In this document: one piece after another, positions 31,839-44,783 of the stretch | How the letters are laid out: each line of letters starts with the position of its first letter | How positions within the stretch are numbered: the first letter of the stretch is position 1 | From: [Mycobacterium] crassicus | Lineage (GTDB): Bacteria > Actinomycetota > Actinomycetes > Mycobacteriales > Mycobacteriaceae | DNA length: 64,000 nt | NCBI RefSeq assembly: GCF_020181615.1 | Contig: NZ_CP084029.1 | Coordinates: forward strand, 4,774,847-4,838,846 | Direction of reading: 5' to 3' | Translations under genes and position numbers: made by a program | The notes under the pieces: generated by a model | What the model was told of the DNA's origin: nothing | What the model saw: only the letters and a program-made list of their open reading frames with translations | Database searches by the model: none

Positions 31839-33602
31839 TCAGCGCGCCCCGCGCACCAGCCGGCCCGGCCGCGCGCCGGTGTCGGCCCCGTTGCGCCGGG
31901 TGACGGTGCCGCTGACGATCGTCGCAACATACCCGCTGGCGCCCTGCAGCAGACGACGGCCACCGGCCGGCAGGTCGTAGGCCATCCGGGCCGGATGCAG
32001 CGTCAGCGCGTCCATGTCGATGACGTTGATGTCGGCCTTCTTGCCGACCTCGATGGTGCCGCGATCGTTCAGCCCGAACAGCTGCGCGGTGTCCCGGCAC
32101 TGTTTGCGCACCAGGTATTCCAGCGGCAGCCGCTCGCCCCGGTGCCGGTCGCGGGCCCAGTGGGTGAGCAGGTAGGTGGGGTAGGAAGCGTCGCAGATCA
32201 TTCCGCAGTGCGCGCCGCCGTCGGACAGGCCCAGCACCCCGGCGGGGTGGGTGAGCATCTCACGGATCGCGTCGTGGTTTCCGTCGGCGTAGTTGAAGAA
32301 CGGCAGCATCAGCATCGCGCCGGCGTCGCCCTCCAGCATCAGGTCGTACAGCGTCACCAGCGGGTCCTCGCCGCGGGCCGCGGCGATCGACGCCACCGAG
32401 CGCTCGGCGGTCGGCTCGTAGTCCGGCGGGTCGCCCAGGTCATAGATGCGGTGCAGCGAGTGCTGCACCAACGCGAACATCGCGTCGAACTGCACGGCGG
32501 GATCGGGCGGCAGGTCGTCTTCGGCCAGGATCGCGGCCTTCACGGCCGGATCGGCCAGTCGCGCGGCGAGTTCGGCACGGCTGCAATCGGCCTTCAGCCG
32601 GCGGTAGGTCGGCCGGTGGGTGAACGCGTGATGCCCCGGGAACCCCAGCAGCATGCCGAACGGCCGGGCCGCGATCTGCGGGTACAGCGCGCTGCCGGCC
32701 TGGTGGGCGGCCGCCGAGATGTCCAGCTGCTCGCGCCACAGGTTCGGGTCGGCGTCGACCTGGATCAGCGCGAACGACACCGGTCGGTCGATCTCCGCGC
32801 CGAGGCGCTGCATCCACTCCAGTTCCTTCTTGGGCGCCACGATGTCCTCGCCGGCCGCACCCTGCGGAGCGAGTTCGAACACCGCCTGACCGCCCGCCGC
32901 CATGGCCCGGCCCAGGCCGAACAGTTCGTCTTCGGCGGCGAACGTGCCCGGTACCGGTTCACCGTCCATGGCCCGGTGCGCCAGCGTGCGCGACGTCGAG
33001 AAACCCAGTGCCCCAGCCTCAACGGCCTCTTGCACCAGCCGGCTCATGGCCGCGATGTCGTCCGGGGTGGCCGGCTCGTTGCGGGCCCCGCGGTCACCCA
33101 TGGCGTAGGCGCGGATCGCGCCGTGCGCGACCTGGCTGCCGACGTCGACGGCCAGATTCTGACTCTCGAGTTTGTCCAGGTACTCCGGGTAGCTCTCCCA
33201 GCCCCAGGTGATGCCCTCGGTGAGCGCGGTACCGGGGATGTCCTCGACGCCCTCCATCAGCTCGATCAGCCACTCCTCACGGCCCGGCCGAACCGGGGCG
33301 AAGCCCACCCCGCAGTTGCCGGTGACCACCGTCGTGACGCCGTGCCCGCTGGACGGATCCAGCAGGCCGTCCCAGCTCACCTGGCCGTCGTAGTGGGTGT
33401 GGATGTCCACGAATCCCGGTGCGACGATCCGGCCGGTGGCGTCGATCGTCTCGGCCGTCGCACCGGTCAACCCGGGATCGTCAGCTCCGGAGCGGCGCCG
33501 GACCGCGACGATCCGGCCGTCGGAGATCCCGACGTCCGCCAGGTAGCGGTCGGCTCCGGTTCCGTCGACGACGGTGCCCCCGGTGATCGTGAGGTCGTAC
33601 AT
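31839..33602 (-). CDS. N-acyl-D-amino-acid deacylase-family amidohydrolase
   Basis: A 587-residue protein with an N-terminal beta-domain, then the metal-binding motif HTHYDGQ at about 68-74, further His in [11 protein letters not shown], and a C-terminal [13 protein letters not shown] segment closing the composite domain. This matches the D-aminoacylase/N-acyl-D-glutamate deacylase branch of the amidohydrolase superfamily, in which many members hydrolyse unknown amides. The ATG at 33602 has GAAGGAG seven bases upstream. It is first in the minus-strand unit, divergent from tetR across a strong dyad. Confidence 0.9.
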
Positions 33603-33656
33603 GGACAGCTCCTTCGATCGTGGCATCGGACGTGCCGAGAGCGGGTGTTGATCAAT

Positions 33657-33683: not shown

Positions 33684-34301
33684 GTGCCTGGCGATCCGAC
33701 GCTGCTCCCGACTCCACTGCTCGTCGCGGCCGCCGACACGCTGCGTCAACTCGGCCCGCGCCGGTTCAGCCTCACCGCGGTCGCCGAAACCGCCGGGGTG
33801 TCACGCGGCACGGTGCACAACACCTTGGGGACCCGCGACGCCGCCATCACCGCGGCCCTGGACCACCTGTCCGCGGCGTTCATCGCGACGCTGGCCGCCG
33901 AGGTCAACGAGCAGAGCACGCTGGCCGACCAGGTGGCCGCCGCGGCGGTGCTCATCTCGGCGCACCGCCGCAAGAAGGCGAGCACCCCGCGCGGCATCAA
34001 CCAGGGTGTGCTGATCCTGCTGTTGGAACACGGCAACGAAGCGCTGCTGCGGCGTTCCGTCGAGTTGTGGACGCCGCTGGTCCGCGCCGCCGCTCGCCGC
34101 GGCGAAGTGGCCGCCGGGATCAACGCCGGCCGGGCCAGTGAATGGATCATGCGTGTGCTGTTCAGCTTCGAGCTGCTGCCGCCCATCCGGGTGGATCTGG
34201 ACAATCCCCGCGCGGTGCGCCGCTTCGTCAGCGACCACATCGTCGCCGGCCTGGGCGGAGCGAGCCGCGACACCCAACAGGAAAAGGAGATTCCCGCATG
34301 A
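33678..34301 (+). CDS. TetR-family regulator
   Basis: A 207-residue protein. The helix-turn-helix lies at about 30-55 (SLTAVAETAGVSRGTVHNTL), with a C-terminal ligand domain containing TPRGINQGVLILLLEHG. The GTG start gives a normal short arm before the HTH. It is the first gene of a unit with a mycofactocin-type SDR (four-base ATGA overlap). It presumably controls this unit and the divergent deacylase unit through the dyad at its start. Confidence 0.88.
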   Translation: MQVPGDPTLLPTPLLVAAADTLRQLGPRRFSLTAVAETAGVSRGTVHNTLGTRDAAITAALDHLSAAFIATLAAEVNEQSTLADQVAAAAVLISAHRRKKASTPRGINQGVLILLLEHGNEALLRRSVELWTPLVRAAARRGEVAAGINAGRASEWIMRVLFSFELLPPIRVDLDNPRAVRRFVSDHIVAGLGGASRDTQQEKEIPA

Positions 34302-35119
34302 CCGATTCCTCGCTGACCGGCAAGGTCGCCTATGTGACCGGGGCCGCCCGCGGGCAGGGCCGCTCGCACTGCGTCCGGTTGGCCCGCGCCGGGGCCGACA
34401 TCGTCGCCATCGACGCCTGCGCGCCGGTGACCGAACACAACGGCTATCCACCCGCGACGTCCGAGGACCTCGCCGAGACCGTCCGACTGGTCGAGGGCGA
34501 GGGCCGCAAGATCCTCGTCGGGGAGATCGACGTGCGTGACCTGGCCGGCCAGCAGCGCATCGTCGCCGACGCGATCGAGCAGTTCGGCCGCCTCGACATC
34601 GTCGTCGCCAACGCCGCGGTCCTGAACTGGGGCCGGCTGTGGGAGATCTCCGCCCAGCAATGGCAGGACACCCTGGACATCAATCTGACCGGCCTGTGGA
34701 ACACGGTCAAAGCCGTTGTCCCGCCGATGATCGCCGCCGGAAACGGCGGGTCGATCATCGCCGTCAGCTCCGCGGCGGGAATCAAGGCGGTGCCCGGCTG
34801 CGGCCACTACTGCGCCACCAAGTTCGGCGTTGTCGGCCTGACCAACTCCCTGGCCGTGGAGCTCGGCGAGTTCGGGATCCGGGTCAATTCGGTGCACCCC
34901 TACGGCACCGACACCCCGATGGGCAACGACACGTCGATCTACGAGATGCTGCGCGACCACCCCGGCTATATCCACAGTTTCTCGCCGGGCGCGCTGCCCA
35001 CCGACTCACTCATCGCGCCCGATCAGGTCTCCGACATCGTGGTCTGGTTGGCCGGCCCCGAGTCCTCTTTGATCACCGCCGCCCAGATCCCCGCGGAAAA
35101 GGGCTACCTCAAGATCTGA
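34298..35119 (+). CDS. mycofactocin-coupled SDR-family oxidoreductase
   Basis: A 273-residue short-chain dehydrogenase. The Rossmann motif TGAARGQGRSH lies at about 14-24 with the QGR form typical of the mycofactocin-dependent group (TIGR03971). An insert after the second strand (CAPVTEHNGYPPATSEDL) is also characteristic. Catalytic Ser is near 158, with Tyr171 and Lys175 (YCATK). Family members carry non-exchangeable NAD and pass electrons to the peptide-derived cofactor mycofactocin, usually oxidising alcohols. It overlaps tetR by four bases and has AAAAGGAG before the ATG. The mycofactocin biosynthesis genes are not in this window. Confidence 0.88.
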   Translation: MTDSSLTGKVAYVTGAARGQGRSHCVRLARAGADIVAIDACAPVTEHNGYPPATSEDLAETVRLVEGEGRKILVGEIDVRDLAGQQRIVADAIEQFGRLDIVVANAAVLNWGRLWEISAQQWQDTLDINLTGLWNTVKAVVPPMIAAGNGGSIIAVSSAAGIKAVPGCGHYCATKFGVVGLTNSLAVELGEFGIRVNSVHPYGTDTPMGNDTSIYEMLRDHPGYIHSFSPGALPTDSLIAPDQVSDIVVWLAGPESSLITAAQIPAEKGYLKI

Positions 35120-35221
35120 GCCTCGCCTGCTGTCCTTTTCGCCGGACACCGATCGTCGGCGGTGCCATGATCAGCTGCAGTACACCATCGTTTTCGAAGT
35201 CCACGACGTTAGGGCGACAAC

Positions 35222-36403
35222 ATGGGCGAACGGGTAATCGACCGGCTGATGGAGATCGCCGACCAGCTGCGCGAGCAGGCCGGCGAAGCCGAGCGGATCG
35301 GCCGGCTGACCGATCAGACGGTCAAGGCGATGAAGGACGCCGGCTCGATCCGGTTGCTGCAGTCGGCCAAACACGGCGGGTATGAGGCGCATCCGCGCGA
35401 GTGGGCCGAAACCGTCATGGCCACCGCGGCGCTGGACCCGTCGGCGGGGTGGGTCAACGGGGTGGTCGGGGTGCACCCCTACCAGCTGGCCTACGCCGAT
35501 CCGCGGGTGGGCGAGGAGATCTGGGCCGAGGACGTCAACACCTGGATGGCCTCGCCGTATGCGCCACAGGGCGTGGCCAAGCCGGTCGACGGCGGCTATA
35601 TCTTCAACGGCCGGTGGGGGTTCAGCTCCGGTACCGACCACTGCGACTGGATCATTCTCGGTGCGATCGTCGGCGACGCCGACGGCGTTCCGGTCATGCC
35701 GCCTGCCATCTTGCACATGATTCTGCCGCGCTCGGACTATGAGATCGTCGACGACTCCTGGGATGTGGTGGGGCTGCGCGGAACCGGATCCAAGGACGTC
35801 ATCGTCAAGGATGCCTTCGTCCCGAGCTACCGGACGATGGACGGCATGAAGGTGATGGACGGCAGCGCCCAGCGCGAAGCCGGCATGACCAATCCGCTGT
35901 ATCTGATGCCGTGGTCGACGATGTTTCCGCTCGGCATCTCCTCGGCGGTCATCGGTATCACCGAAGGCGCGCTGGCCGCCCATCTGGACTATCAGCGGGA
36001 ACGGGTGAGCGCCACCGGGACCGCGATCAAAGACGACCCCTACGTCATGTACGCGATCGGGGAGGCGGCCGCCGACATCAACGCCGCCCGCCAGGAGCTG
36101 TTGGCCAACGCCGACCGGATCTTCGACATGGTCGCCGCCGGCAAGGAGGTCAGCTTCGCCGACCGCGCCGCGGGGCGCCGCACCCAGGTTCGTGCGGTGT
36201 GGCGCGCGGTGGGCGCCGTCGATGAGATCTTTGCCCGCTCCGGCGGTAACGCGTTGCGGATGGACAAGCCGCTGCAACGGTATTGGCGCGACGCGCACGC
36301 CGGGCTCAACCATGCGATTCATGTGCCCGGGACCACGTTCCACGCCTCGGCGCTCAGTTCGTTGGGCATCGAGCCGCAGGGCCCGCTGCGGGCGATGATC
36401 TAA
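35222..36403 (+). CDS. HsaA-like flavin-dependent monooxygenase, oxygenase component
   Basis: A 393-residue member of the acyl-CoA-dehydrogenase-fold monooxygenases (C-terminal domain PF08028 type). Features shared with HsaA of cholesterol degradation are GGYIFNGRWGFSSG, VGLRGTGSKDVIVKD, MPWSTMFP and WRDAHAG near residue 358. Such enzymes hydroxylate phenols or similar rings using FMNH2/FADH2 from a separate reductase. No HsaB-type reductase gene is present in the window. It lies downstream of tetR-SDR (102-base gap) and ends ten bases from the convergent amidohydrolase operon. It could instead act on a non-aromatic substrate. Confidence 0.85.
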   Translation: MGERVIDRLMEIADQLREQAGEAERIGRLTDQTVKAMKDAGSIRLLQSAKHGGYEAHPREWAETVMATAALDPSAGWVNGVVGVHPYQLAYADPRVGEEIWAEDVNTWMASPYAPQGVAKPVDGGYIFNGRWGFSSGTDHCDWIILGAIVGDADGVPVMPPAILHMILPRSDYEIVDDSWDVVGLRGTGSKDVIVKDAFVPSYRTMDGMKVMDGSAQREAGMTNPLYLMPWSTMFPLGISSAVIGITEGALAAHLDYQRERVSATGTAIKDDPYVMYAIGEAAADINAARQELLANADRIFDMVAAGKEVSFADRAAGRRTQVRAVWRAVGAVDEIFARSGGNALRMDKPLQRYWRDAHAGLNHAIHVPGTTFHASALSSLGIEPQGPLRAMI

Positions 36404-36413
36404 GGCGGTAACC

Positions 36414-37667
36414 CTACCCGCGGGCCGGCGCCATCCGCTTGAGGGCCAGCCCCCCTTCGAACGGCCGGTAGCCGAAGCCGCCCGGGGACACATATCCGGT
36501 GTCGCCCAACGGTGTCGCGACTTCGGCGACGGACGGCCCGATCTCGGCGGCGACCGGCGCCAGGGCATCCAGGTCGAACCGGTACAGCCGGGCCGCGTTG
36601 CCGCCGAGGATCTTGCGGCACTCGTCCTCGGACCGGTCATGCAGCGCCCAGCGGATGGCCAGTTTTGAGTGCGGCGCGAAACCCTCCTCATGCGGATAGT
36701 CGCTGCCCCACATGATGTGGTCGACACCCAGGTAGTCGATCATCGACGACTCGTAGGGGGTCAGCTCGCTGGCCAGGTACACATTCCGCCGGGCGTACTC
36801 GCTGGGCAGCAGGGTCATCTCGTCGACGGACGACCCACCGAACATCCCGTAGGTGCGGTTGTGCGCCTCGGTTTTCATCATCGGCACCATGACATCGAGC
36901 ATCATCAGCTGTTGCTGCACCCACATGGTGCCCTGCTCGGTCGGCACGAATCGCAGTGTCGGGTACCGCTCGAAGACTCCGGCGAGGATCAGGTGGCTCA
37001 GGGTGCGCTGAGCCCATGACGCCATCTCGGTGATGAGCACCGGGTTGGAGGCCGGCTGGTCCATCGGCATCTCGGGGCTGCCGGCCCCGGCGTGCTGCAC
37101 CACCGTCAGGTCCAGTTCCGCGCACAACGCCCAGATCGGTTCGTAGCGGGTGTGGAACAGCGGGGCCACCTGTGGATCACCCGGCGACACGGCCGGGACG
37201 AGCACCCCGCCGAAGCAGTCCTGCCCGGCACCCCAGCGAATCTCCTGGCACGCCAACTCGATGTCGTTGGGGAAGATCTGAATCAGACCGCGACGCCGGG
37301 CCGGGGCCGACGCGCAGAAGTCGACCTGCCACCGGTTGTGGGCCTGCACTCCGGCCCACCGCTTTTCGAAATCGTCACGGGTGCGGGGCAGGCTGATGGT
37401 GATGTTGGGGGTGGTCGGGAAGAACGGCGGAACGGTGTTGGGCAACAGCACCTCTGCGGCGACCCCGTCGGCGTTCATGTCCGCGATCCGCAGGTCGTGA
37501 TCCCAGTTCCTGCTGGCGGTGGCGACGATCAGATCGTCGAACGGGCTGCTGTATGCCTTTGCCCAGGCGTCGAACTCGTCGTGCAGCCGCTCCGGCAGAT
37601 ACCGCCTGTAGTCGTAGAGATCGGCCCCGGCGTGGGTGTCGGTCGAGATGACGACGTAGCGATCCAT
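36414..37667 (-). CDS. amidohydrolase-2 family protein (paralogue 1 of 3)
   Basis: A 417-residue TIM-barrel protein of amidohydrolase family 2 (ACMSD-like). Metal-site residues are Asp10 and His12 in STDTH at the N-terminus, a His in VVQHAG, and Asp in HIMWGSDYPHEEG. The first motif is DxH rather than the usual HxH or ExH. Family members hydrolyse or decarboxylate cyclic substrates through one divalent metal. GAGGAG precedes the ATG. It is last of five genes in the minus-strand operon, ten bases after paralogue 2. Confidence 0.88.
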   Translation of the reverse strand: MDRYVVISTDTHAGADLYDYRRYLPERLHDEFDAWAKAYSSPFDDLIVATASRNWDHDLRIADMNADGVAAEVLLPNTVPPFFPTTPNITISLPRTRDDFEKRWAGVQAHNRWQVDFCASAPARRRGLIQIFPNDIELACQEIRWGAGQDCFGGVLVPAVSPGDPQVAPLFHTRYEPIWALCAELDLTVVQHAGAGSPEMPMDQPASNPVLITEMASWAQRTLSHLILAGVFERYPTLRFVPTEQGTMWVQQQLMMLDVMVPMMKTEAHNRTYGMFGGSSVDEMTLLPSEYARRNVYLASELTPYESSMIDYLGVDHIMWGSDYPHEEGFAPHSKLAIRWALHDRSEDECRKILGGNAARLYRFDLDALAPVAAEIGPSVAEVATPLGDTGYVSPGGFGYRPFEGGLALKRMAPARG

Positions 37668-37677
37668 CGTGGACTCC

Positions 37678-38946
37678 TCAGTTCTGCACCAGGTCGGGGA
37701 TCGGCTCGGCGTCGGTGAGCCAGTGCCGGCCGACCGCCCGCGCCGCCTCCCACTTGGGGATGCTGATCGCGTCGTCCTGGCCGAGGTCCGCGGGCGTCGG
37801 GCCGATGCGCGCGGCCAGCGGGGCCAGCGCCGCGAGATCGAAGTGGTACAGCTCGGCTGCCGCCAGGCCGAGCATCTGCCGGGTCTCGTCGACCGGAATG
37901 TCCCAGAAGGACCGCCGCAGCCAGTCGAGGGTGTGCGGCCAGGTCCCTTCCGGGTGCGGGAAATCGTTGCCCCACAACATGTTGGAGACACCGATCTCAT
38001 AGCGTCTGGCCAGCTCCCGGCGTTCGGTGGTGGTGGCCCCGATGAAGCAGTTCCGGTCGAAGTAGGCCGACGGCGGCATCGTCAGGTCGCCTTCCATGTG
38101 ATGGCTCATCTTCTTGGCGGAGTGCTCCCGCAGGAACCGGGTGTCCATCAGCCACAGCAGATCGTTGGCCCAGAAGGCACCGCACTCGGTGACCCCCCAG
38201 CGCAGGCCGGGGAACCGCTCGAACACCCCCGACCACAACGCGAACCACAGCGGCCGGGCACCCCACCAGCGCACCTCGGTGACGTAGATGCCCAGGTGCC
38301 CGCCGTACTCCTCCTGCGGGGCGGGCCCGGAGTGGGTGTGCACCGGCATCTGCAGGTCTTGGCAAGCGGCCCAGACCTTGTCGTAGCGGCGGTCGTGGTA
38401 CGGCGGGTACCCGACCCAGCGGGCCGGGATCAGGATCCCGCCCCGCAGCCCGGATTCCGCCGCGCGGGTGATCTCGGCGACCGCCGCGTCGACGTCGGCC
38501 AGGATCGGCACCACCGCGACCCCGGCGCGCCGCTCGGGGCTGTGGCTGCACAGTTCGGCGAGCCAGCGGTTGTGGGCCCGTGCCCCGGCCATGGCGCGTC
38601 CCGGGTCCAGGTCACCGGACTGGCCCAGGCCGGCCCCGAACGGGGCCCCGGCGACCCCGGTCACCGCGTCGGCGTCGGGGAAGATGACCTCGCCGACCAC
38701 CCCGTCACCGTCGAGTTCCCGGTCCCGCAGCGCCACATCCCAGCCGCCGGCGATGCCCTCGCCGTGCTCGTCGAACCACTCCTGGGCGAACTCCTCGTCG
38801 ATGAACCCGCCGGCCTGCGCCGCGGCGGTCTTCTCGGCCAGGTAGACCTCGAAGTCGTCTAGGTATTCGGGATCGACGTATTCGCGGTACCGCTCGGTCG
38901 GCAGTTCGGCGTGGGTGTCGGCGGAGATGATCGTGTACGGGTCCAT
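37678..38946 (-). CDS. amidohydrolase-2 family protein (paralogue 2 of 3)
   Basis: A 422-residue paralogue of its neighbours with the same Asp10/His12 start (SADTHAELP), a His in VHTHSG and Asp in NMLWGNDFPHPEG. An extra segment at about residues 28-65, rich in Asp/Glu (DDFEVYLAEKTAAAQAGGF), is absent from the other two, so the substrate pocket probably differs. AAAGGA precedes the ATG at 38946, which was chosen over an ATG 20 codons earlier lacking a ribosome site. It is fourth in the operon. Confidence 0.88.
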   Translation of the reverse strand: MDPYTIISADTHAELPTERYREYVDPEYLDDFEVYLAEKTAAAQAGGFIDEEFAQEWFDEHGEGIAGGWDVALRDRELDGDGVVGEVIFPDADAVTGVAGAPFGAGLGQSGDLDPGRAMAGARAHNRWLAELCSHSPERRAGVAVVPILADVDAAVAEITRAAESGLRGGILIPARWVGYPPYHDRRYDKVWAACQDLQMPVHTHSGPAPQEEYGGHLGIYVTEVRWWGARPLWFALWSGVFERFPGLRWGVTECGAFWANDLLWLMDTRFLREHSAKKMSHHMEGDLTMPPSAYFDRNCFIGATTTERRELARRYEIGVSNMLWGNDFPHPEGTWPHTLDWLRRSFWDIPVDETRQMLGLAAAELYHFDLAALAPLAARIGPTPADLGQDDAISIPKWEAARAVGRHWLTDAEPIPDLVQN

Positions 38947-38959
38947 AGCGGTCCTTTCG

Positions 38960-40174
38960 CTACCAGGTACGGATGGGGTCGGGTTCGAAAACGGTGCTGC
39001 TCGCATCGGCGGGTACGGCCAACAGTGGTTCGGCCACCTCGGCCACGGTCGGGCCGATCCGTTCGGTCAACGGCGCCAGCGCCGCCAGGTCGAAGCCGTA
39101 GACGGCAGCCGCGTTCCCACCGAGCATGGCCGCCACTTCGGCTGGAGGGACACCGGCAAAGGTGTGCCGCAACGCTTCCCGGGTGTAGAGACCGGTGCCC
39201 TCGTAGTGCGGGTAATCGCTGCCCCACATGATCTTCTCGATGCCGATCGCGTGCCGTTCGGCGCACTCCACGGGCCGCATGAAGCTGGCGCCGACATAGC
39301 ACTGCCGGGACCAGTACTCGCTGGGCCGCAGGCTCAGCGAGCCGGCGGTGGGTCCGGCGAAGCGGGAGATCGCCGAACCGGGCCGCGCATAGCGGGCCGC
39401 CGCGACGTCGAGCGAGTCCAGTGTCGCCGGTATCCACCCGGCGCCCTGCTCGGTGAAGACCACGGTGAGGTCCGGATGGCGATCCAGTGCGCCGGAGAAG
39501 ATCAGGTGCCACAGCGCCCGGTGCGCATACCAATGGGTCTCGTACACCCATACCGCGAATGAGCTGCCCCACCCGTCGGTCGGGGTCGGTCCGGCGGTGC
39601 CGCCGTGGTGGTTGACCACCACACCCGCCTCGTCGCAGGCCGCCCACAGCGGCGCCCAATGCTCGGCGTAGAGCTGCGGGATCGCGGCACCGGGGGCGAC
39701 TCCGGGCAGTAGCACCCCGCCGCGCAGCCCGAGTTCGGCGATCCGGGCGACTTCGGCGACGGCTTCGTCGAGGTCTTCGAGCAGAATCTGGCCCACCCCG
39801 GCGCGCCGCTCCGGTGAGCGCGAACAGAAGTCGGCCAGCCAGCGGTTGTGCGCCCGCAGTCCGGCCCAGCGCAGTTCGACCTCCCGGGCGGTCTCCGGGG
39901 GCGGGGCGGCCAAGCTCCCGCTGGGGAAGAACGGCGGCACAGTATTGGGGTAGATGATCTCGCCGGCAACACCTTCGGCGTCCAGGTCGGCGTTACGCCG
40001 CTCACTGTTCCAGCTGCGTTCGGCGTCGGGCTCGGTGAGGTCGCCGAACGGGTTGACGTAAGTCTTTGCCCAACCATCGAATTCGTCCCGAAACTTCGGT
40101 TCCAGGTATTCGCGGTAGTCCAGCAGGTCGGCGCCGGCGTGGCAGTCGGCCGAAATGATGGTGTAGCGGTCCAT
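38960..40174 (-). CDS. amidohydrolase-2 family protein (paralogue 3 of 3)
   Basis: A 404-residue paralogue, closest in layout to paralogue 1 (both have an N-terminal DYREYLEPKFRDEFDGWAK-like helix). Metal residues are Asp10 and His12 in SADCH, a His in VVNHHGG and Asp in KIMWGSDYPHYEG. It is third in the operon, five bases after the decarboxylase-like gene and 13 before paralogue 2. All three proteins end with a FDLxALxPxxxxIGP segment, showing a common origin. Confidence 0.88.
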   Translation of the reverse strand: MDRYTIISADCHAGADLLDYREYLEPKFRDEFDGWAKTYVNPFGDLTEPDAERSWNSERRNADLDAEGVAGEIIYPNTVPPFFPSGSLAAPPPETAREVELRWAGLRAHNRWLADFCSRSPERRAGVGQILLEDLDEAVAEVARIAELGLRGGVLLPGVAPGAAIPQLYAEHWAPLWAACDEAGVVVNHHGGTAGPTPTDGWGSSFAVWVYETHWYAHRALWHLIFSGALDRHPDLTVVFTEQGAGWIPATLDSLDVAAARYARPGSAISRFAGPTAGSLSLRPSEYWSRQCYVGASFMRPVECAERHAIGIEKIMWGSDYPHYEGTGLYTREALRHTFAGVPPAEVAAMLGGNAAAVYGFDLAALAPLTERIGPTVAEVAEPLLAVPADASSTVFEPDPIRTW

Positions 40175-40178
40175 GTGC

Positions 40179-40982
40179 CTAGGCCCGCGCCGACTCGGGC
40201 CGCGGGGCGGCGAGCAGGGCGACATCGTCGTAGCGCTGGTGCACGTAGGGCAGCAGCCATTCGGCCGGCACCCGTTCGGCGATCCGCCCCAGCTGGACGG
40301 TGCGGCGGCGGCACCAGGTGATCGAGCGGATCTCACGGATCACGATGTCGGCCACCGGATCCAGCGGCGACTCCCCCAACTCGCACGTGCCGTCGATGTT
40401 TTCCAGCACCTCGTAGTGCCGGTGGTATTCGCCGTACACCAGGTGGGGATCGGTGATGCCGTTGCCGTCGGGGGCGCGCAGGAACTTGAAGTAGAACTCG
40501 GTGTTGATCTGGTCGGGCGGCAGCTCCGCCGGGCCGGTCACCCGGCCGCTGACGGTGATGAGCTGATGGCCCAGCCGGTCCACCCCGGCGGTGACGCGAT
40601 CCCCGTCGCGCTCCACCGCGATGTTCGCTATCTTCTTGGGCTCGCCGAAGGTTTCGCGGCCGCCGGTGACCGATTGTTCGGTGGACTGCGGCATGAACAG
40701 CGGATAGTCGCCGGCGGTCTCGCCGTGCCGGGCGGTCACCGAGAACACCGCCGACGTGAAGGTCGGCATGCCCTCGATGCGGACCCGCTGTAGCTGGACG
40801 CGCACCAGCGGTTCGGCGGCCGGCTCCAGCGGCCGGGGCAGTACGGCCGCGACGATCTCCGGGTCGGTCAGGTAGGTGATCGTCACCGCCTCGGTGGCGA
40901 TCGGCGCCTTGGTGGCATCGATCTCGTGGTCGACCCGCGTCTCCGGCGGGCGAGGACCGTAGCGAACTCCGGTGGCACTCAA
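40179..40982 (-). CDS. acetoacetate decarboxylase-family protein
   Basis: A 267-residue protein aligned by eye with acetoacetate decarboxylase. GGRETFGEPKKIANI matches the clostridial segment around the Schiff-base lysine, and both adjacent lysines are kept (Lys116 and Lys117 here). It may therefore decarboxylate a beta-keto acid or do related Schiff-base chemistry. The TTG start at 40982 is supported by AAGGAGGA seven bases upstream and by a TTGA four-base overlap with the SDR stop. It is second in the operon. Confidence 0.85.
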   Translation of the reverse strand: MSATGVRYGPRPPETRVDHEIDATKAPIATEAVTITYLTDPEIVAAVLPRPLEPAAEPLVRVQLQRVRIEGMPTFTSAVFSVTARHGETAGDYPLFMPQSTEQSVTGGRETFGEPKKIANIAVERDGDRVTAGVDRLGHQLITVSGRVTGPAELPPDQINTEFYFKFLRAPDGNGITDPHLVYGEYHRHYEVLENIDGTCELGESPLDPVADIVIREIRSITWCRRRTVQLGRIAERVPAEWLLPYVHQRYDDVALLAAPRPESARA

Positions 40983-41914
40983 GGCGTTCCTCCTTCTTCC
41001 GAGGCGTTTTTGGCATGCTGCCCGAGGACGTCGACCAGGTAGTTGGGCTCGCCGCGCCCGAGGATGGACGCCGCCTTGGCGCTCACCACCTGATCGGCCG
41101 GGGTGGGCGGGCCCATCATCCAGAACCGGTCTGCCGCAATGCCGTCGATCACCAGTTCGGCGACCGTGTCGAGCGAGGTGAATTCGACATGGGCGCCGGC
41201 GGCTTCGAAACGGTCCACCACCCCTGCCAGGGTCGTCTCCGGGGTGCGCCGTTGCTGGGTAGCGGCGTAACGATCCGGGCGATGCCGCCACGACTCCCAG
41301 ATCCCGGTGTTCAAGAAGCCGCCCGGGAAAAGGACGTGCGCCCGCACCCCGGTACCGGTCATCTGCAGGTGGGTGTAGAGGCTTTCGGTCAGGCAGAGCA
41401 CCGCGGCCTTGGTCATGGGATAGACGGCGGTAGCCGGCCCACCCATGGCACCCCGGGCGATCGGGGCGAACCCGCCGTTGCCCGAACAGGTGTTGACCAC
41501 GTGTCCCTCGCCCTGTTCCAGCAGGATCGGCACGAAGGCTTTGATGCCGTGGACGACGCCCAGCACATTGACGTCGATCCCCCACCGCCAGTCGGCCAGG
41601 TCGTGCTCCCACAGGTACCCCTCGGAGACCGCGCCGGTGCCGGCGTTGTTGCACACCACATGCACGGCACCGAAGCGATCGAGAGCAGCGTTGGCCAGTG
41701 CCTCGACCGAGGCCCAGTCGGTGACGTCGGTGACCACTCCGGTCGCCTCGATCCCCTCGTCGGCGAGAGTCCGGACCGCCTCCTGCAGCGGTTCGGCGAG
41801 GACGTCGGCGAGCACCACGTTCATGCCCGCCCGACCGAAACACCGGCCCAGGGCTTGACCGATGCCGCCGGCTCCCCCGGTCACCACCGCCGTTTTGCCT
41901 CGAAAGTCAGTCAT
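40979..41914 (-). CDS. short-chain dehydrogenase/reductase
   Basis: A 311-residue SDR. TGGAGGIG at 12-19 binds NAD(P); CNNAG is at about 88-92; catalytic Ser is at about 144, with Tyr165 and Lys169 (YPMTK). The C-terminal 60 residues extend past the classical fold. The ATG at 41914 gives the usual length; the longer reading frame upstream is non-homologous. It is first in the five-gene operon and is divergent from iclR across a 75-base gap. Confidence 0.88.
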   Translation of the reverse strand: MTDFRGKTAVVTGGAGGIGQALGRCFGRAGMNVVLADVLAEPLQEAVRTLADEGIEATGVVTDVTDWASVEALANAALDRFGAVHVVCNNAGTGAVSEGYLWEHDLADWRWGIDVNVLGVVHGIKAFVPILLEQGEGHVVNTCSGNGGFAPIARGAMGGPATAVYPMTKAAVLCLTESLYTHLQMTGTGVRAHVLFPGGFLNTGIWESWRHRPDRYAATQQRRTPETTLAGVVDRFEAAGAHVEFTSLDTVAELVIDGIAADRFWMMGPPTPADQVVSAKAASILGRGEPNYLVDVLGQHAKNASEEGGTP

Positions 41915-41954: not shown

Positions 41955-41969
41955 GTCGCACTATGCGAC
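41955..41969. promoter_or_regulatory. putative IclR operator (GTCGCA-N3-TGCGAC)
   Basis: A perfect dyad, GTCGCA-CTA-TGCGAC, lies between the divergent SDR operon and iclR genes, 21 bases before the iclR ATG. IclR-family sites are often about 15-base pseudo-palindromes, which fits. Joint control of both directions is inferred. Confidence 0.6.
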
Positions 41970-41989: not shown

Positions 41990-42874
41990 ATGGCCGCCCG
42001 TCCCTCCCCGCAGACCGAACGGGTGGTGAACCTGTTCGAGCACCTGGCGGGTGCGGCTGACGAGGGCATGACGTTGGCCGAGGTGTCACGTCAATTGAAC
42101 GTCCACAAAGCCAGCTGCCACTCGATGCTGGCGGAGCTGCTGCGCGCCGGCTGGTTACTGCGCGACCCGGTTCGCAAGACCTACCACCTCGGCCCGGCCC
42201 TGGTTCGGCTCGGCCGCGAGGCGGCCGGCCGTTATCCGGCCCTGGTGCTGGCCCGGTCGGAGATGGCCGAGCTGTCGGCGGCCACCGGCGCGCACTGCGT
42301 TGCCTTCTCGGTGAGCGATGACTACTCCACCGTTGTCGACCAGGTCCGCAGCCCCCACGGCGGCGGTCACCCGATGCCGATCGGCACCCAGTTTCCGCAC
42401 CGTCCGCCGTACGGGGCGTCGATCGCAGCGTGGTCGGGACCGGATGTCCGGGAGCAGTGGCTGGCCGCCGTCCCCGGGGACGTGCGTGATCGTTACCGCC
42501 AGGCCCTCGCCGCCGCCGGGCAACGGGGCTACGCGGTGGGACTGCACATCCTGCCCGACCTACGCCTGCAGGAACTGGCGCTGATCGTGCGTAGCGCCGA
42601 GGTACGTTCCACCCGGCTCAGCCAGCTGGCGCAGGCCTTGACCGACGAGCTGATCCACACCGAGGAGTGGTTCCCGATCAGCCTGGCGCCCGACCGTGCC
42701 TACACGGTGAGCCACATCGATTCCCCCATCCTGGGGCCGGAGTCGCGCGTCGAGTTGATGCTGAGCCTGGTTCCCCGCGCCGACCCGATGAGCGGCGTCC
42801 TGGTCACCGATCTGGGAACGCAGCTCTGTGCGGCAACCCGCCGACTCAGCACCGCCCTGGCCGCCGAAGGTTAG
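41990..42874 (+). CDS. IclR-family transcriptional regulator
   Basis: A 294-residue protein. The N-terminal winged helix lies at about 10-70 (MTLAEVSRQLNVHKASCHSM), with a C-terminal effector domain with GAHCVAFSVSDDYSTVVDQV and PYGASIAAW. It is the probable regulator of the divergent SDR-decarboxylase-amidohydrolase operon. IclR proteins commonly control catabolism of aromatic or short acids and sense pathway intermediates. The ATG at 41990 was chosen as the closest to the HTH. Confidence 0.9.
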   Translation: MAARPSPQTERVVNLFEHLAGAADEGMTLAEVSRQLNVHKASCHSMLAELLRAGWLLRDPVRKTYHLGPALVRLGREAAGRYPALVLARSEMAELSAATGAHCVAFSVSDDYSTVVDQVRSPHGGGHPMPIGTQFPHRPPYGASIAAWSGPDVREQWLAAVPGDVRDRYRQALAAAGQRGYAVGLHILPDLRLQELALIVRSAEVRSTRLSQLAQALTDELIHTEEWFPISLAPDRAYTVSHIDSPILGPESRVELMLSLVPRADPMSGVLVTDLGTQLCAATRRLSTALAAEG

Positions 42875-44030: not shown

Positions 44031-44783
44031 TCAGCCCGGAACGGCGGCCTTCAGCGACTCCAACGCGGCGGTGCTGAGGCGGGCCAACTCCGCGGCCTCG
44101 GCCGGATCGAGGGCAGCCGCGAACAGATCCGCCATCCGCCGGTTGGTCACCTGCTCGATCTGCGCGTACTCGTCGCGCTTGGCGGCGCCGTCGGCGTAGG
44201 GCTCGGGCCAACCGAACATGGCGGCGTACTGCGGTCCCTTGTTGAGCATGTGAGCCTCGATCGGGGTGACACCGGAGATGCACAGCGCGTTGAAGTGCAC
44301 CGCGGCCCGCAGTTCGCGCAGCACGAACATCACCTGCAGTGCCCGGGCGGCGGCATCGTCGGCCAAAGGCATCGCACGCCAGCCCGCGTATAGCGGCAGC
44401 CCCGCGGACGCCGTCGCGGCGATGACCTTCTCACCCAGCTCGGCGATCCGATCCAGCCCGTCGGCGCCGGCCAGATACTTGCGTCCGAACCCCGCGGTCT
44501 GGTCCCAATACAGTTGCGCCGCACCGGCAGCGCCGCGTACCGCGACACCTTCGTCCCACATCGCGCCCAGCGAGGTCGGCTCGAACACCGCGAACACCGA
44601 CGCGACGGTGCCACCGCTGGCCTCACCCAGGACTCCCCCGCGGCCGGCCACGTAGCCCGCCAACGGGTTCACGTAGCCGGCGGCGATGCTTTCACCGAAG
44701 GTCTCCGGGTGCAGCATGAAGATCGCGACGGCCTGCTCCATCGCGGTTCCGGTCGCGTCAACGGCGTCCAACATCTCGCTCAT
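44031..44783 (-). CDS. SCO6745-family protein
   Basis: A 250-residue mostly helical protein resembling actinobacterial proteins of the SCO6745 group: GYVAGRGGVLGEASGGTV near 45-62, a long middle with RALQVMFVLRELRAAVH, and ISGVTPIEAHML. The biochemical role is unknown. The ATG at 44783 has AAGG close upstream. It lies 53 bases downstream of the tetR gene on the same strand and is the last gene of this unit. Confidence 0.75.
   Translation of the reverse strand: MSEMLDAVDATGTAMEQAVAIFMLHPETFGESIAAGYVNPLAGYVAGRGGVLGEASGGTVASVFAVFEPTSLGAMWDEGVAVRGAAGAAQLYWDQTAGFGRKYLAGADGLDRIAELGEKVIAATASAGLPLYAGWRAMPLADDAAARALQVMFVLRELRAAVHFNALCISGVTPIEAHMLNKGPQYAAMFGWPEPYADGAAKRDEYAQIEQVTNRRMADLFAAALDPAEAAELARLSTAALESLKAAVPG

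Follow-up and report, generated by a model that had tools for sequence, protein, structure and literature searches.

Paired amidohydrolase-related proteins in an actinobacterial four-gene module are likely dinuclear oxygenases

Introduction

What do three amidohydrolase-like genes do side by side, and do they serve one pathway with the genes around them? The question is raised by a 64,000-nucleotide stretch of the [Mycobacterium] crassicus genome (contig NZ_CP084029.1, positions 4,774,847 to 4,838,846; hereafter the window), in which positions 36414–41914 hold genes for a short-chain dehydrogenase/reductase (SDR), an acetoacetate decarboxylase-like (ADC-like) protein and three PF04909 amidohydrolase family members (AH1, AH2 and AH3), next to a divergent gene for an IclR-type regulator. 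A sequence-only reading of this DNA had taken the three as a triplicated set, possibly cleaving amides or lactones. On balance, the analysis below somewhat favors AH1–AH3 being TIM-barrel dinuclear oxygenases, of which AH1 and AH2, together with the SDR and the ADC-like protein, would make up a locally regulated four-gene pathway with the chemistry proposed below.

The three PF04909 proteins carry a dinuclear oxygenase ligand set

PtmU3, AibH2 and SfbO have been grouped as amidohydrolase-related dinuclear oxygenases (AROs; PMC10811679). The hydroxylases PtmU3 and AibH2 each contain a dinuclear metal center, and the metal ligands of AibH2 are Asp25, His27, His211, Glu265, Asp337 and His340; the acidic residue at AibH2 position 342 (Asp342) is absent from its mononuclear partner AibH1, and the residue found there in PtmU3, Glu313, binds iron (PMC7782822). 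AH1 presents the residues listed in Table 1 at the AibH2 ligand places and has equivalents in AH2 and AH3, i.e., all three proteins carry the six ligands D, H, H, E, D and H, followed by a Glu two positions after the last His. The D10/H12 motif that the sequence-only reading had pointed out was indeed present in each of the three, and since they carry the full AibH2-type set, this D-x-H makes up the first two of the six ligands in an oxygenase set. Neither HxH nor a His at the E position, as in classical amidohydrolases, was found in AH1–AH3.

The PF04909 domain scored above its cut-off in all three proteins, and by structure their nearest relatives were known AROs. By sequence, the closest solved relatives of AH1 were PtmU3 (E 5e-39) and DitZ (9e-25), with all listed decarboxylases and hydrolases ranking lower, and the same two proteins headed the solved relatives of AH2 and AH3.

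Conservation of the ligand set was scored in 237 unique homologues, retrieved by tblastn with AH1–AH3 as queries from 285 frames after removal of duplicates and of frames shorter than 330 residues. All 237 showed the six ligands and an acidic seventh residue (E in 230, D in 7); this last residue was E in 90/90 AH2-type rows and, in the 113 AH1-type rows, which include other paralogues, either E (106) or D (7). Because these homologues had been picked by similarity to AH1–AH3, a wider control was wanted. Searching the genome gave 16 PF04909 proteins, of which 11 carried the full set, one had the six ligands with T as the seventh residue, and four were without the set. L160, one of these four, still carries D-x-H, so this motif by itself proves nothing. 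Three PF04909 members of the genome show H where the ligand set has E and miss the second H, and alignment of the PF04909 decarboxylase LigW showed H in place of E and Y in place of the second H. Judged from these residues, AH1–AH3 likely belong to the dinuclear oxygenase class rather than to the amide-cutting enzymes; their metals and oxygen chemistry are what we infer from this membership.

Gene block and feature assignments

The five genes are as tightly packed as had been claimed, lying head to tail in the order SDR, ADC-like, AH1, AH2, AH3 with intergenic gaps of –4, 4, 13 and 10 bp, and all five products gave Pfam matches above the cut-offs (Table 1). The ADC-like gene has a TTG start and overlaps the SDR stop. 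The SDR exceeded the cut-off of its family profile and contains Y-x3-K, which we take to be the motif of this class. With NCBIfam, no name was obtained for AH1 or AH2, and AH3 gave one match far below its cut-off. A promoter and terminator scan gave no signal exceeding chance.

Table 1. Features of the gene block and its regulatory region (window coordinates)
Feature	Position	Strand	Assignment and evidence
SDR, NAD(P)-type dehydrogenase	40979-41914	minus	NCBIfam NF004843/PRK06194, 385 bits (cut-off 308); Pfam adh_short 9e-39
ADC-like protein	40179-40982	minus	Pfam ADC, PF06314, 3.5e-46; lysine pair K116/K117
AH1, candidate ARO-type dinuclear oxygenase	38960-40174	minus	Amidohydro_2 2.2e-31; D10, H12, H190, E242, D320, H323, E325
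AH2, second ARO-type protein, adjoins AH1	37678-38946	minus	Amidohydro_2 2.5e-21; full ligand set
AH3, third ARO-type paralogue, facultative neighbor	36414-37667	minus	Amidohydro_2 2.3e-31; full ligand set
Palindrome GTCGCACTATGCGAC, probable IclR operator	41955-41969		between SDR and IclR genes
Divergent IclR-type regulator	41990-42874	plus	PF09339 6.9e-8 (frame from 41999); ATG at 41990

AH1 and AH2 form an old, conserved pair to which AH3 is a facultative neighbor

Loci were fetched with AH1 as the best 80 of 542 candidates, i.e., 48 from Mycobacteriaceae, 31 from Streptomyces and one from Bailinhaonella, and a genus sample of 118 genomes was examined alongside. AH2 adjoined AH1 in all 80 loci (incomplete in L044), the ADC-like gene was present in 79 and the SDR gene in 76. 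The exceptions comprise L039 (M. barrassiae), where neither the SDR nor the ADC gene is present and the IclR gene lacks its start, L043, which is cut off by a contig edge, and two loci from Streptomyces (L088 and L095) with no full SDR match. Within the genus sample, AH1 occurred in 26/118 genomes, in each of which AH2 adjoined it (26/26). Among named relatives, the one closest to AH1 comes from Mycolicibacter sp. MYC017 (97% identity).

The gene order was SDR-ADC-AH1-AH2 in the 48 Mycobacteriaceae loci and ADC-SDR-AH2-AH1 in the 32 others, with a divergent TetR-like gene in all four of the latter that were inspected. AH1 identity between these two orders with different regulators amounted to 58–61%. 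A TetR-like gene that by eye resembles that of the Streptomyces module also stands next to AH2-AH1 in a genome of another actinobacterial class (G397; L123:5870-8021).

Paralogy of the three copies stands, with 38% identity between AH1 and AH2 (403 columns, E 2e-76), 43% between AH1 and AH3 (E 8e-106) and 33% between AH2 and AH3 (E 4e-60). The recent triplication implied earlier does not. In a tree of 58 rows, the AH2 clade (support 100/100) spans actinobacterial classes, and the AH3 clade (100/100) is separate from AH1 on a long stem (0.81 changes per column), its exact sister being unsure given the long branches. Moreover, one genome (G101) is collinear with the window but misses the IclR-SDR-ADC-AH1-AH2 block, and its AH3 adjoins an SCO6745-type gene, which stands at 44031 in the window. 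The old AH2 and AH3 clades, together with this genome that has AH3 but no module, rule out a recent tandem triplication.

AH3 lies within 6 kb of the module in 16/48 mycobacterial loci, either downstream of AH2 (5 loci, as here) or upstream of the SDR gene (11 loci, mostly past the IclR gene). An AH3-like match was found in 23 genomes of the genus sample, nine of which show no AH1, a contig end explaining at least one of these. AH1 and AH2 are thus an old paralogue pair and AH3 is a separate gene seen in two arrangements, best explained as a related oxygenase from another unit that stands beside the operon in Mycolicibacter and is differently placed in other mycobacteria. The independent origins that the sequence-only reading had named as its refutation thus apply in part, the copies being old paralogues of which AH3 joined the operon separately. 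As for the multisubunit enzyme suggested before, the adjacent AH1 and AH2 might still form one, but a unit of three copies is not supported, AH3 often being distant.

A private palindrome between the SDR and IclR genes

The starts of the SDR and IclR genes are separated by a region containing the palindrome GTCGCACTATGCGAC. The sequence GTCGCAnnnTGCGAC recurred in 39/39 mycobacterial loci with SDR and IclR genes at most 600 bp apart and had no further copy in the 765,646 bp that the 48 mycobacterial loci comprise, while the 4.87-Mb genome contains it once, at this site; shuffles of the window led to an expectation of 0.03 palindrome occurrences per window. This distribution provides strong evidence for one predicted, dedicated operator, which the IclR-type protein would bind.

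A proposed pathway of hydroxylation, oxidation and cleavage

In the proposed scheme, AH1–AH3 would be oxygenases with an Fe/Fe or Mn/Fe center whose closest PF04909 relatives are PtmU3 and DitZ, and AH1 and AH2 would probably combine into a heteromeric hydroxylase at the core of a four-gene pathway under the IclR-type regulator. This pair may introduce a hydroxyl group at an unactivated carbon in a carboxylic acid or in the coenzyme A (CoA) ester of such an acid, the substrate probably being CoA-linked, whereupon the SDR would oxidize the alcohol to a ketone. A lysine of the ADC-like protein could then form a Schiff base with this ketone, leading to breakage of the neighboring C-C bond by either beta-keto acid decarboxylation or a retro-aldol reaction. 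A class III CoA-transferase and an EchA19-like hydratase, encoded next to the module in some mycobacteria, might feed or drain the CoA ester. The suggested order shares its logic with 2-aminoisobutyrate (Aib) breakdown, in which hydroxylation by AibH1H2 is followed by two oxidations and then decarboxylation (PMC7782822).

The ADC-like protein has the PF06314 fold with adjacent active-site lysines, and the lysines reported as kept by the sequence-only reading proved invariant, the pair in Table 1 being unchanged in 23/23 aligned ADC-like sequences. It shares fold and P-K-K lysine pair with solved ADC family members (3BGT, 3BH2, 6EEJ and 5UPB), but differs in having GEPKK versus GFPKK of 3BGT, no Glu76 equivalent, and only 13–25% identity.

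A CoA-linked substrate is suggested by the surroundings. The class III CoA-transferase gene follows AH2 in 11/47 mycobacterial loci, either directly (6) or past the EchA19-like hydratase gene (5), the hydratase scoring below its cut-off. In two genomes from another class, the AH2-AH1 pair is flanked by genes resembling acyl-CoA dehydrogenases, and PtmU3 accepts CoA-linked substrates (PMC7782822). Taken together, these neighbors and the PtmU3 substrates point to CoA esters.

Several observations weigh against this scheme. No Rieske match was found in the window, and across the 80 loci a Rieske pattern that detects an AibG-like control returned one chance-looking motif. A small Rieske gene nearby is typical of AROs, though not defining, and because 90% of AibH2-like genes have a Rieske neighbor (PMC10401708), its absence is a real difference. 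Plausible plant-type ferredoxin motifs were present in just 4/80 loci (L027, L033, L041 and L060), 6.5–8 kb from AH1, with the remaining ferredoxin-pattern matches mostly chance-looking. Concerning the ADC-like protein, the canonical Glu76-type residue (in what we take to be the numbering of canonical ADC) is absent, the aligned profile position not being Glu and the corresponding column of the 23 ADC-like rows reading T, G or A by eye; therefore decarboxylation by this protein is not assured. In G279, one of six ADC-positive genomes, AH1 and the ADC piece are on different contigs, the latter at a contig end. Furthermore, the CoA-transferase was not seen in 36/47 mycobacterial loci, some of which end soon after AH2 (Streptomyces was not searched), and a CoA thioester is not easily reconciled with an ADC whose substrate is a free beta-keto acid.

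Two side observations touch on the redox partner. The Streptomyces loci show a recurrent upstream protein with a C-x-H...C-x2-H motif that looks unrelated to Rieske proteins. Elsewhere in the genome (3942437-3945024), one of the four PF04909 genes without the full ligand set, with degenerate ligands (3942437-3943459), the PF04909 gene with T as the seventh residue (3943587-3944618) and a small Rieske gene (3944719-3945024) match the layout aibH1-aibH2-aibG and likely constitute a true AibH-type monooxygenase.

Alternative explanations

AH1–AH3 could be stand-alone dinuclear oxygenases of the PtmU3 kind that attack one polycyclic substrate at successive positions, with no AH1/AH2 complex. The full dinuclear set in all three proteins means that none resembles an AibH1-type silent partner, and the neighbors of AH3 include genes of steroid type, namely one for an HsaA-like monooxygenase in the window (score under the cut-off) and, in two other genomes (L135 and L139), one for a 3-ketosteroid dehydrogenase. 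The adjacency of AH1 and AH2 throughout the loci and genomes surveyed nevertheless exceeds what separate enzymes would need, and we regard solo action as rather improbable. Slightly less probable again is that the ADC-like protein is an aldolase-dehydratase like 6EEJ of S. bingchenggensis, which would build a C-C bond and make the operon biosynthetic; this is compatible with AH1–AH3 being oxygenases, but the operon extensions with CoA-transferase and EchA19-like genes and the acyl-CoA dehydrogenase-like flanks in two genomes favor breakdown.

That AH1–AH3 are metal-dependent PF04909 hydrolases, decarboxylases or hydratases acting on products of the SDR and ADC-like protein appears quite unlikely, since the E and D-x-x-H-x-D/E set is absent from the non-oxygenase members examined (LigW and three paralogues of this genome), and decarboxylases rank under PtmU3 and DitZ both by sequence and by model. 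The amide or lactone hydrolysis of the sequence-only reading is not supported, the full ligand set being one that fits dinuclear oxygenases and not the hydrolase and decarboxylase members compared. That unrelated genes simply came together by chance in a gene-dense island of an actinobacterium is hardly credible. While the genes flanking the block do vary between genomes, the same four genes recur in two orders with different regulators despite the divergence of AH1, the palindrome is private, and co-occurrence is marked (Fisher p 1e-9, uncorrected for kinship). Chance is thereby refuted for the four-gene core, although it is still a fair account of the position of AH3.

Relation to known systems

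The ARO class itself is already known (papers from 2021–2024; PtmU3 structure released in 2019). With PtmU3, the diterpenoid hydroxylase of Streptomyces platensis (PDB 6OMP), AH1–AH3 share the PF04909 barrel, a ligand set with Glu as the last residue and their best sequence match, but an operon with SDR and ADC-like genes is not described in the portions consulted of the PtmU3 literature. AibH1H2, the 2-aminoisobutyrate hydroxylase of Rhodococcus wratislaviensis, likewise consists of two adjacent PF04909 paralogues within a catabolic cluster with dehydrogenase and decarboxylase steps. However, AibH1 has one metal and lacks the last acidic residue, which AH1 and AH2 both retain, and the aib genes include the Rieske ferredoxin AibG and reductase AibF, neither of which was seen in this module. 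DitZ of Rhodococcus rhodochrous (PDB 8UYR) shows 25% identity over the structural alignment and has Asp versus Glu here as the last acidic residue; no DitZ paper was found in the open-access library searched.

A module of SDR, ADC-like protein and paired AROs was not found in the titles and abstracts of the open-access library searched, a scope that left subscription journals mostly outside, and the module under its own operator probably represents an undescribed degradation pathway. The undescribed pathway suggested by the sequence-only reading thus gains support, as an apparently coherent one with a dedicated IclR-type regulator, from the conserved core, the palindrome and the literature search. 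A more specific proposal, which we make tentatively and consider doubtful in its full form, is that a heteromeric dinuclear oxygenase with both partners complete and no dedicated Rieske partner would act with the SDR and a Schiff-base lyase in a four-gene route for the oxidative C-C cleavage of a steroid- or terpenoid-like acid, from mycobacteria to Streptomyces. In that case, many actinobacterial genes annotated "amidohydrolase" would encode oxygenases.

If the oxygenase assignment is true, the common label "amidohydrolase family protein" hides oxygenases, as the 11 full signatures among 16 PF04909 proteins of this genome would illustrate. The four-gene module would moreover offer a small, tractable system for the recently recognized ARO class, for which few natural substrates and electron donors have been established, and its private palindrome could report the inducer.

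Neighboring genes

Next to the block, a mycofactocin-coupled SDR (TIGR03971, above cut-off) adjoins the HsaA-like flavin monooxygenase (NF045629, 376 bits, cut-off 450) at window positions 34298-36403, which suggests that the adjacent region serves the breakdown of steroid- or aromatic-type compounds. In other mycobacteria, two AH3 genes stand away from any AH1/AH2 (L135:7956-12379 and L139:5629-9339), with genes for a PadR-like regulator and for a 3-ketosteroid-delta-1-dehydrogenase (NF009479, above cut-off) next to them; the steroid link drawn from AH3 neighbors is suggestive only. Finally, window positions 31839-33605 encode an amidohydrolase of another family (Amidohydro_3, PF07969), outside the PF04909 paralogues.
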